Part shown: piece after piece, positions 21,588-63,198 of the stretch
Layout of the letters: each line of letters begins with the position of its first letter
How positions within the stretch are numbered: position 1 is the stretch's first letter
DNA from: Alphaproteobacteria bacterium
Lineage (GTDB): Bacteria > Pseudomonadota > Alphaproteobacteria > Rhizobiales > Beijerinckiaceae
Direction: 5' to 3'
DNA length: 64,000 bases
NCBI GenBank assembly: GCA_016869595.1
Contig: VGDT01000001.1
Span: 1 to 64,000, forward strand
Made by a program: the position numbers and the translations under genes
Notes under the pieces: generated by a model
What the model was told of the DNA's origin: nothing
Databases searched by the model: none
The model's input: the letters and a program-made list of their open reading frames with translations, nothing else

Positions 21588-21963
21588 GCGTTGAATGTGC
21601 GCTTCCTGACTCGATAAGGCTTAGGACCTTAGCTTCACGTAAAAAGATCCACACGGCCGTTGGCAAGGCGATAAATTCCACTCACGACTTTGAGGCGCTT
21701 TTCGTTGAACGCGGCGCTCAGCAAAGGCGCTGCGGTCTTGAGCGTCTCGGCGCAAAGCCGGGCGTTCTCCTTGGTCGCGTTCTCTAACGGATCGCCCCGA
21801 CGGCGTGCGACTGCGTTTACCGCCGGCGCCAGAGCGGCGACAAGCGACGGTAGGTGGCCAGGTAAAGTCGTATGATCCTGTATCGAAGAAATCGCGGATT
21901 TAACAGCGCCGCAGGCTTCGTGACAGAGCACGAGAATGAGAGGAGTCTTCAGCACCTCCACGG

Positions 21964-21972
21964 CATATTCCA
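21964..21972. repeat. Target-site duplication, left copy
   Basis: CATATTCCA, identical to 23389-23397, directly abutting the left end of the insertion sequence within the carbonic anhydrase gene. Confidence 0.93.
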
Positions 21973-23388
21973 GAGCTATCGCCGATTTTTGGTGACGGCC
22001 TGAAGGATCAGGCGGCAGCGGTTTGGGGCTGAGAGTCGGCCGGCGTTGCGACGACCTCGAGCCCGTCGATGAACTTCACACCCTCGATGATTTTTGGCAA
22101 CTGGTTGTGGCCGTCGAGACGGCGCCAACTTTTTTGCGCGCCCTCGACCAGCTTGAACACCATGGCGAGCGCGGTCTTGTTCGAAAGGCATCCCTTCGAT
22201 CGGATGGTCCTGTGCCGCACGGTCGCGAAGGTGCTTTCGATGGGGTTTGTCGTTCTCAAATGCTTCCAGTGCTCGGCGGGAAAATCGTAGAAGGCGAGCA
22301 GCGCCACGCGATCCTTCTTCAGGCATTCGGCCGCCTTCTCGTATTTGAGCGCGTAGTTTTCGATGAAAGCGTCGAACGCGGCTTCGGCCTCGGCCTTGGT
22401 TTCCGCCATCCAGATCGCCTGCAAGGCCCGCTTGGCCTTGGCATGCTGGCTCTTTGGCAGCTTGTTCAGCACGTTTGCCGTCTTGTGCACCCAGCAGCGC
22501 TGCTCGCGTGTTTTCGGCCACACCTCGCCGAGCGCCTTCCAGAACCCGAGAGCGCCATCGGCGGCGGCGAGTTCCGGCGCGACAGACAAGCCACGCCGCT
22601 TCAGATCGAGCAGTAAGACACGCCAGTCGTGGGCGCTCTCGCGCGTGCCGTCGGTGAAGCCGACAAGCTCCTTCCTGCCCTCCGGCGTGGCGCCGATGAT
22701 GACGAGGATGCATTGCGCATTGTCCTCCAAACGCGCCTGCAGATGAATGCCGTCGGCCCAGACATAGACGTAGCGCTTGGTGGAAAGGTCGCGCTCGTTC
22801 CAGCGCTTGTGCTCGTCGAGCCAGACCTCCTTCAGCCGCGCGATCGTCGAGGCCGACAAGCCAGGAGCATCCTTGCCGAGCAAGGCGGCCAGCGCTTCCT
22901 CGAAGTCGCCGGTCGAAACGCCCTTCAGGTAGAGGATCGGAATCAGCATCTCCAGGCTCTTCGAGCGCCGGGCGTAAGGCGGCAGGATCGCGGGCGTGAA
23001 GCGGATGCGCTCGGGATCGCCGGCGCCAGCCTCCCGGTCGCGCACGCGCGGCTGGCGAACGCCAACGGGGCCAATACCGGTCATGATCTCCCGCTGCGGC
23101 AGGCGGCCGTGGCGCACAACGCGCCGATGGCCGTCCCCGGTCTTGAGATCGGCATGTTTGGTCAAAAACTCGGTGACCTCGGCTTCGACCGCCTGGCTCA
23201 ACAGGGCGCACGCCCCATTGCGCAGCACCTCGGTCAATTGGTCGCTGAAGGTCCCTGGCTGAATCAGCTTGATGACGTTATCCTTGGACACGGCGTATCA
23301 CTCCTTCGATGGAGAAGTGGAGGCTCGAACACCCCCACGATACGCCGCCTTACCGATTCACGCCGTCACCAACTTTCGGCAATAGCTC
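21973..23388 (-). mobile_element. IS256-family insertion sequence, 1416 bp, with terminal inverted repeats and 9-bp target duplication
   Basis: The left end begins GAGCTATCGCCG and continues TTTTTGGTGACGGC. The right end read on the minus strand begins GAGCTATTGCCG and continues AAAGTTGGTGACGGC. These imperfect inverted repeats span about 32 bases. The element is flanked by identical 9-bp direct repeats CATATTCCA (21964-21972 and 23389-23397), the length expected for IS256-family transposition. The single transposase gene is intact, and the perfect duplication suggests a recent insertion. Confidence 0.95.
22008..23291 (-). CDS. IS256-family (mutator-type) transposase
   Basis: A 427-aa DDE transposase read from GTG 23291. 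The catalytic residues are visible in VWADGIHLQ (first Asp), ELAAADGALGFWKAL (second Asp) and TTNPIESTFATVRHRT (Glu with the family-typical following residues). A CWVHK motif also typical of the family lies between the second Asp and the Glu. The length matches full-length family members and no frameshift is seen, so the element may be active. Long open frames on the opposite strand are shadows of this gene. Confidence 0.96.
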   Translation of the reverse strand: MSKDNVIKLIQPGTFSDQLTEVLRNGACALLSQAVEAEVTEFLTKHADLKTGDGHRRVVRHGRLPQREIMTGIGPVGVRQPRVRDREAGAGDPERIRFTPAILPPYARRSKSLEMLIPILYLKGVSTGDFEEALAALLGKDAPGLSASTIARLKEVWLDEHKRWNERDLSTKRYVYVWADGIHLQARLEDNAQCILVIIGATPEGRKELVGFTDGTRESAHDWRVLLLDLKRRGLSVAPELAAADGALGFWKALGEVWPKTREQRCWVHKTANVLNKLPKSQHAKAKRALQAIWMAETKAEAEAAFDAFIENYALKYEKAAECLKKDRVALLAFYDFPAEHWKHLRTTNPIESTFATVRHRTIRSKGCLSNKTALAMVFKLVEGAQKSWRRLDGHNQLPKIIEGVKFIDGLEVVATPADSQPQTAAA

Positions 23389-23397
23389 CATATTCCA
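23389..23397. repeat. Target-site duplication, right copy
   Basis: CATATTCCA, identical to 21964-21972, directly abutting the right end of the insertion sequence. Confidence 0.93.
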
Positions 23398-23776
23398 AGC
23401 TCGCGATATTGTCCGGATTCACGATATTGCCGGCGACACGCACGACGAACAGATCTCCGCGCGAACTGTCGAAGGCGTATTCCGGCGCAATCCGTGAATC
23501 GGCGCAGCTGAGAATCGCTGCATAAGGATTCTGCCCGCCGACGAGCGCCTCGCGTTCGGCGGCGAAGTCGTGCCGCTTTGCGACGCCTTGCTGATATCGC
23601 TTATTGCCCTCCATCAGGCGCGCCAACGCGTCGTCAGGGGTCATCACGTTCTCAGGCTTGGGCGGCGTACTAGCCTGCTTTGTCCGTTTAGATTGGGCTA
23701 TTTGGCCCTTCGCGTTCGCGCTTGTAACCGCCATCGCTCCCGCTGCGGCGCCGAAGACAAAGGTTCTGCGACGCAT

Positions 23777-24103
23777 CTTGCTTCCATGAATGATGTCGGC
23801 AAAGCCACAAGCCTGACACATGACGCGATCCTCCGGGGGAGAGACAATCCTCCACTATTTGTGGTGCAAACATAACACGCACAGTCGCCAGCCAGATAGC
23901 AGGAGAGTGTCTTCTCCTCTCGCTCAAACTCTGCCAGGGATCGGGAGCGTGCCGATTGGATGCGTCTTAACGAGACGAGCCGACGCTACGCATTTAATTT
24001 ACCATACAATTTACAAATCGCCGTCGCGCAGCGTTGGCCCACATTATGGCCGCAACCTAAGTCGACGCTCCATCGTCCGCTATTTGACGAGTGGAGGTGC
24101 AAC
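23777..24103. other. Intergenic region between the carbonic anhydrase and the NepR-like gene
   Basis: 327 bp separating two divergent genes. Open frames here on both strands lack family-like sequence. The right half is relatively AT-rich (around 23990-24030) and could hold the plus-strand promoter. A small inverted repeat CGTCT/AGACG occurs near 23961-23978. I see no clear GGAAC-type stress promoter. Confidence 0.5.
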
Positions 24104-62005: not shown

Positions 62006-62044
62006 AGCGCCCTAATTAGACGAAAAAACCCTTTTGGGCGCGAG

Positions 62045-62905
62045 ATGGCTACCGACTATCAGACTTTGGATAGGCTGCTCGAACAGCTTGAGGCCTTGTT
62101 TCACGCTGCGGAACGCGGGGATGCCAGTTGGCGCGACGTCTGGGGGCTCAAGAAGCAAATACACGAATTTTTTCGGGATGTACGATATCCGACACCCCAA
62201 GATCGCGTCACTGCGTGGGAGCGTTTTCGCGAGATTGTGGACGAGATGAAGGAACAAAAAGAAGAAGCGGACCGGCACCGCGAGGAACGGGCGCGAGAGT
62301 CTGACAAGTGCTTGAAGCGCATCAAAACGCTTGCCGATAACGTAATGAATTACGATCCGACCGGTGCAGAAGTATTCATTAACGTCCTGGGCCTCGGGCT
62401 CATTCCCAATCTGGCGGCAGTCGCGACGACCGGCCACGACCCATTTTTTTCGACGCAACTAGAAATTCTCCAGGCGCGATCTTCCCTCATGCGCGAAGCC
62501 TGGGCCGATTTTCAGGAAAACAAAGACATTCTGATGCGAAATGACCGAGCTGCGGCGCATGACGCGTTGCAAGAGGCGCAGGAAGACTTGAACAATGATT
62601 GGCGCGATTACAAAGAGAAAAAGCAGCGCCATTATGAGGAAAAGCGCACCCAGTGGCGCGAGCGAATTGAAAAAAATATTGAGAAAGAGATTGCGAGCGT
62701 CAGCCGCATGAAGGAAGCTCTCGAAAACAAAAAGGATTTTCGTGCGCGCTGCGTAGAACGTCGAGCGACCGCGCGTTCAGACAGCTTTCGGGACGAAATG
62801 CAGGCAAAAATTGACGCTGTCGACGATGAAATCTATGATGTTGAGGAAGCTATCCAAAAGCATGAAGGCTATATCGAGGACTTCCGCAAGAAGTTAGACG
62901 AGTAA
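62045..62905 (+). CDS. Coiled-coil protein of unknown function
   Basis: A 286-aa protein that I do not recognise. Two long charged helical regions (about residues 60-105 and 165-285, rich in K/E/R with heptad-like spacing) flank a short hydrophobic stretch (EVFINVLGLGLIPNLAAVATT, about residues 109-130). Base composition is clearly less GC-rich than the neighbours and the codon choice includes rarer A/T-ending codons, suggesting later acquisition. The stop is followed by a spacer and a phosphoglucomutase remnant. Confidence 0.75.
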   Translation: MATDYQTLDRLLEQLEALFHAAERGDASWRDVWGLKKQIHEFFRDVRYPTPQDRVTAWERFREIVDEMKEQKEEADRHREERARESDKCLKRIKTLADNVMNYDPTGAEVFINVLGLGLIPNLAAVATTGHDPFFSTQLEILQARSSLMREAWADFQENKDILMRNDRAAAHDALQEAQEDLNNDWRDYKEKKQRHYEEKRTQWRERIEKNIEKEIASVSRMKEALENKKDFRARCVERRATARSDSFRDEMQAKIDAVDDEIYDVEEAIQKHEGYIEDFRKKLDE

Positions 62906-63000
62906 CAGTGAGATATCAGCCTTTCTGTCTCGCAACAACAGGAACTCTTTTGGGCGTGAACTCGAGTCGAAGAGCACTCGGCTGTGCCGCGCCGTTTAGA

Positions 63001-63183
63001 CTATGTGATGACGCTCGGCGCGGCGCGTTGCGTATAGCGTTCGATCGCGGCGAGTTCGCGCGACAGCGTCACGAGGTCGGCGAGCGCCGCCTGAGTCTCC
63101 GGATATTGCTGCACGGGGTCGGGTTCGTAAGGCTCGATGTAGACGCGCAGTGTCGCGCAAGATGTGCCGGTGCCGACAGCCGA
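63001..63183 (-). pseudogene. C-terminal remnant of phosphoglucomutase
   Basis: About 60 codons on the minus strand read SAVGTGTSCATLRVYIEPYEPD and end TQRAAPSVIT before a stop. The GTGTSGATLRVYIE pattern and the PSVIT/PTVIT end are the C-terminus of alpha-D-phosphoglucomutase. The upstream 90% of the gene is absent, so this is a fragment left by deletion or rearrangement. GTGTSC has Cys in place of the usual Gly. Confidence 0.85.
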
Positions 63184-63198
63184 TAGACCACCCGCCAA

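Follow-up and report, generated by a model that had tools for sequence, protein, structure and literature searches.

A gene for a beta-class carbonic anhydrase is cut in two by a 1416-bp insertion sequence (IS) in a bacterial genome of the methane-oxidizing Methylocystis lineage. The gene lies on the minus strand at positions 21635-23821 of the window, that is, of the whole 64,000-nucleotide stretch of DNA that was analysed. We interpret the locus, with a probability of roughly 94%, as the product of an IS256-family transposition into an accessory, probably exported carbonic anhydrase gene, whose loss is tolerated and whose repair by excision is possible only in principle. In the sequence of events that we propose, an IS256-family element would have jumped into an accessory gene with a twin-arginine (Tat) leader, duplicating 9 bp of its target and parting the two zinc motifs, CADSR and HxxC, from each other, so that no active enzyme would come from the locus. 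The source genome is a draft of 3.28 Mb (98.91% complete, 2.24% contaminated), and an ortholog-alignment scan of named genomes returned Methylocystis records as its closest relatives (276 stretches matched and 240 were confirmed, of which the best 80 were retained).

The element occupies positions 21973-23388 and is bordered by a perfect direct repeat, CATATTCCA, present at 21964-21972 on its left and at 23389-23397 on its right, as a previous, sequence-only reading of this DNA had claimed. Two given 9-bp sites would be identical by chance with a probability of 4^-9 = 3.8e-6, and a short target duplication on insertion is standard for the IS256 family. Its terminal inverted repeats (left, 21973-21999; right, 23362-23388) have the same base at 23 of 27 positions. 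Between them, on the minus strand and thus in the orientation of the interrupted gene, lies a transposase of 427 aa (22008-23291) that is indeed intact and full length, scoring 317.7 bits against NCBIfam NF033543 (curated cut-off, 150) and 214.7 bits against Pfam PF00872. Transposase score, inverted repeats and an 8-9 bp duplication assign the element to the IS256 family.

Members of this family (NF033543; PF00872) resemble it in length, GAGCTAT ends, a single Mutator-type transposase and, where seen, duplications of 8-9 bp. Related elements elsewhere have the same GAGCTAT ends, and both ends were readable in four of the five other copies compared (L202 was left out): L205 is flanked by the 9-bp duplication TGCCCACGC and L208 by the 8-bp duplication TTCAAGCC, while neither L203 nor L207 has a target duplication. 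The nearest named copies, at 80-81% identity, reside on Bradyrhizobium plasmids. No donor was found among plasmids, where the top copy reaches 80.7% identity; among viral contigs, where four loci show 60-61% protein identity; or among 298 genomes of the family, which gave 76% at best outside the source genome (two candidates scored per listed genome). Scoring up to nine candidates per genus genome, we obtained a whole-length match in the source genome only, the longest match in the others spanning element positions 85-1416 at 68%. A near-identical full-length donor copy was likewise not found in the source assembly, in which the other matches are a 127-bp end (98%) where contig C61 terminates and a 69% relative on contig C22.

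Each part of the gene retains a recognizable portion of the enzyme. The 5' part (23390-23821, minus strand) begins with MCQACG, includes the Tat leader and the CADSR motif, and matches positions 2-48 of the Pro_CA profile with 49.6 bits; tblastn with the protein of Methylocystis sp. B8 stops at 23390. The 3' part (21635-21972, minus strand), 92% identical to B8, bears the HEAC motif and matches profile positions 50-156 with 51.0 bits. Removal of the element and one 9-bp copy yields an open frame of 253 residues containing both motifs, and the product covers the whole Pro_CA domain (PF00484; 118.7 bits, profile 2-156 of 156), in agreement with the claim that rejoining would restore an uninterrupted frame and zinc site. 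Aligned with its B8 ortholog, the rejoined product shows 86.6% identity. The rejoined protein scores below the cut-off of NCBIfam NF011765 (PRK15219 carbonic anhydrase family protein; 143.3 versus 221 bits).

We take CADSR to provide the first zinc ligand and the Asp-Arg dyad, and HEAC the second and third ligands. The Cys, His and Cys ligands and the dyad are all found in the rejoined protein, and an ortholog profile puts both motifs in register with the solved beta-carbonic anhydrase 2a5v. In the present allele the element separates CADSR from HEAC, so they are not on one polypeptide, and neither fragment should be able to form an active site because the insertion point lies between the two zinc motifs. 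The split is seen directly in the sequence, and we infer from it that the interrupted locus makes no active enzyme.

The end of the gene at 21635 agrees with what had been reported, whereas its start, placed before at 23776, is most likely at 23821, adding 15 codons at the 5' end. This is because orthologs begin at a conserved MCxxCG stretch, which precedes the Tat leader (window 23777-23821) and is invariant in the nine relatives of the alignment. The leader, as read by eye, contains a twin-arginine (RR) motif and a hydrophobic stretch, suggesting that the carbonic anhydrase is probably exported via the Tat route; the periplasmic location proposed in the earlier reading depends on this motif.

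Comparison of the window with 400 kb of Methylocystis sp. B8 gave a median identity of 92.7% over the aligned pieces and left only two stretches longer than 400 bp unmatched, 21973-23388 and 62008-63196. At the carbonic anhydrase locus the unmatched stretch is exactly the element, indicating that B8 carries the empty site at the syntenic position; the joined site of the source genome agrees with B8 at 137 of 143 positions, without gaps. The other stretch encloses a 286-aa ORF (62045-62905) that looks coiled-coil-like by eye. An assembly artefact that joined an IS to a carbonic anhydrase gene might be suspected in a draft of 152 contigs, one of which, C61, ends inside a similar element. Nevertheless, a chimera would not yield a perfect 9-bp duplication at the exact ends of the IS, and the first 64 kb of this 351-kb contig match B8 throughout, except for the element and the one other stretch longer than 400 bp, so we consider an artefact very unlikely.

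To define the distribution of the gene, we counted as close orthologs those matching the N-terminal piece with an E value of 4.9e-44 or better; this piece is matched at E ≤0.001 in 38 of 39 genus genomes (the source genome included), many of them via other types of carbonic anhydrase. Close orthologs occur in 17 of the 38 other genus genomes; more distant ones, with 47-62% identity, occur in six further genomes (G034 and G028-G032) and were left out of the 17. The frame is plainly open in 16 of the close orthologs and also open in the remaining one (G035; L021, 1447-2211), where two compensating 1-base indels, perhaps sequencing errors, scramble about 16 residues after CADSR. An IS interruption was found in none of these 17, which bears out the suggestion that the insertion is specific to the source genome. 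The Tat-leader beta-carbonic anhydrases of Methylocystis (B8, M. silviterrae, M. rosea and others) show 70-87% whole-protein identity in 16 orthologs, with the same zinc and dyad residues, and the locus is syntenic in B8; these 16 are open reading frames, whereas the gene of the source genome is interrupted. Another genome (G023; L209, 3103-3222) retains only 40 residues of this carbonic anhydrase (70%), a remnant that points to independent decay of the gene at least once elsewhere in the genus. A close ortholog in 17 of 38 genomes and a remnant in one more indicate that Methylocystis genomes carry it as an accessory gene.

The insertion had been described as recent, and the substitution pattern is only in part consistent with this. 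Changes polarised by ten relatives amount to 16 replacement and 13 silent on the branch of the source genome and to 18 replacement and 25 silent on that of B8, with five replacement and 10 silent differences assignable to neither branch. The excess of replacements on the former branch over that of B8 is not significant (p = 0.34), and relaxed selection on the interrupted gene was rejected on the basis of this ratio. Conversely, at four columns where all 16 relatives share one residue the source genome has a residue of its own (three of the four columns being downstream of the insertion), as compared with one such column for B8, and because of these four unique residues constraint on the gene may already have been weakened for a while. 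Like these residues, the failure to find a near-identical full-length donor copy speaks against a very recent event; a recent insertion is plausible but not proved, the lack of a significant replacement excess lending it weak support.

An element with a perfect duplication offers a substrate for precise excision, and the sequence-only reading had accordingly suggested that the locus may be switchable. An IS6-family label for IS256, which appears in a review of such switching, we take to be a slip. That review (PMC11178275) places IS256 in the IS6 family and describes how its insertion in a gene and precise excision make ica and sarA phase-variable in Staphylococcus epidermidis, a situation resembling ours in that excision could restore the gene. 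The same review calls precise excision in S. epidermidis a rare event that does not seem to depend on transposition (PMC11178275), and for this reason an intact transposase does not speak for switching. The Methylocystis locus is known from a single allele, for which reversal by precise excision would be possible in principle. Additionally, a simple pattern scan around the element detected neither a consensus promoter nor any other regulatory feature, although its counts (0 promoter-like sites for 0.5 expected, 5 terminator-like sites for 2.7 expected) are uninformative. Hence an on/off switch, with an element excising at a useful frequency to restore the enzyme, is very unlikely, and the claim of switchability is not sustained.

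Serine-cycle methanotrophs need bicarbonate. In several heterotrophs, carbonic anhydrase activity or a supply of the products of central carboxylations is reported to be able to sustain growth in air (PMC9894237). The search of the source genome for other carbonic anhydrases, advised with the earlier reading, yielded two intact beta-class genes and one gamma-like gene. PF00484 has five matches: two are taken as fragments of the interrupted gene (one is among the matches listed and the other is assumed to be the second fragment), and the others are on contigs C22, C3 and C4. The beta-carbonic anhydrase genes on C22 and C3 are both intact. The gamma-like protein is encoded at C1:64291, 291 bases to the right of the window, and its matches among solved proteins carry the label gamma carbonic anhydrase; no alpha-class enzyme was found in the genome. 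Tolerance of the loss would most likely derive from the carbonic anhydrases that remain and from CO2 produced by methane oxidation, or a CO2-rich habitat, supplying enough bicarbonate.

The C4 match is itself a broken gene, so that two of four loci of the beta-carbonic anhydrase family are broken in this assembly. This second gene (C4:81268-81849, minus strand; loci L123/L200) differs from that of B8 at 16 of 582 bases: 14 changes are silent, one exchanges Val and Ile, and one creates a TAG between the zinc motifs, at codon 87, just 5' of HHTNC. The gene is carried by 36 of 39 genus genomes, including all 30 of good quality, and the stop occurs only in the source genome among 38 match rows (35 other genomes being stop-free; a few rows, such as that of G027 and that of the second G003 copy, are partial). 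The solved relatives of the protein include COS and CS2 hydrolases as well as carbonic anhydrases, and for this reason it may not be a CO2 enzyme.

We estimated the background rate of gene breakage from 506 B8 ORFs (580 kb) compared with 588 kb of source contigs, 338 of them having a match of ≥65%. In 32 of the 338, the source frame was shorter than 0.8 of the query length. Visual inspection, which covered the initial 70 residues of each of the 32 and the full length of ten, led us to discard 29 as antisense frames, spurious frames, contig-end effects or differences in start site. Three clear breaks remained by this judgement: the IS-split gene, the C4 gene and a gene at C3:62255-62632 (minus strand), presumably DUF488-like, whose frame, compared with that of B8, is interrupted by a TAG. 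Breaks thus affect two of three compared carbonic anhydrase-family genes versus 1/306 of the others (p = 0.0002), a base rate that depends on our judgement by eye; leaving out the IS-split gene, Fisher's test gives p = 0.013, which rises to 0.019 when the intact gene on C22 is included. Because contigs C3, C4 and C22 were picked for holding carbonic anhydrase genes and the counts are tiny, this excess is only a lead, not a proof, of a relaxed need for carbonic anhydrase.

These data bear on a broader explanation, in which the lineage would be shedding part of its carbonic anhydrase set under high CO2, the two independent recent lesions between zinc motifs being adaptive in a habitat that never runs short of CO2 or bicarbonate. 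Two of the three clear breaks among 338 ORFs fall in this family, with p values of 0.013 to 0.019 even without the IS-split gene, and the C4 stop is unique to the source genome in a gene that 36 of 39 genomes carry and that otherwise shows 14 silent and one conservative change with respect to B8. Against this, the contigs were preselected, the counts are very small and 29 exclusions made by eye underlie the base rate; the C4 protein has COS and CS2 hydrolases among its solved relatives; a similar nonsense codon occurs in the DUF488-like gene; and C3 and C22 each hold an intact beta-carbonic anhydrase gene. We therefore judge shedding across the lineage unlikely, and such an adaptation similarly doubtful. 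Our preferred interpretation, transposition into a single accessory gene, describes a true but ordinary IS256-family insertion, since inactivation by an IS is a routine mutation; titles and abstract openings in the literature disclosed no report of a Methylocystis carbonic anhydrase interrupted by an IS. The second broken gene, with its unrelated lesion, is the slightly more curious part and deserves follow-up. A double loss, if true, would be of mild importance, as natural losses would show which of several isozymes can be spared, and under which CO2 conditions.

A further type of beta-carbonic anhydrase (169.7-178.9 bits), present in 34 of 39 genus genomes by hand count among the matches listed, has no match in the source genome. 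We considered it as a third lesion and did not count it as lost, because its upstream neighbour in B8, which we take to be an NAD(P)H-hydrate epimerase/dehydratase-like gene, also has no match in the source genome (in a search run without a positive control). An assembly gap would thus be a simpler explanation than a larger deletion, and either would account for the absence without shedding. In B8 this carbonic anhydrase directly precedes a transporter gene. The best match of the 8-kb B8 locus in the source genome is a transporter gene, presumably of the SulP type, at C57:11033-12563 (76% DNA identity), with no carbonic anhydrase within 1.5 kb upstream; weaker matches lie on C12 and on C22, beside the beta-carbonic anhydrase gene of that contig.
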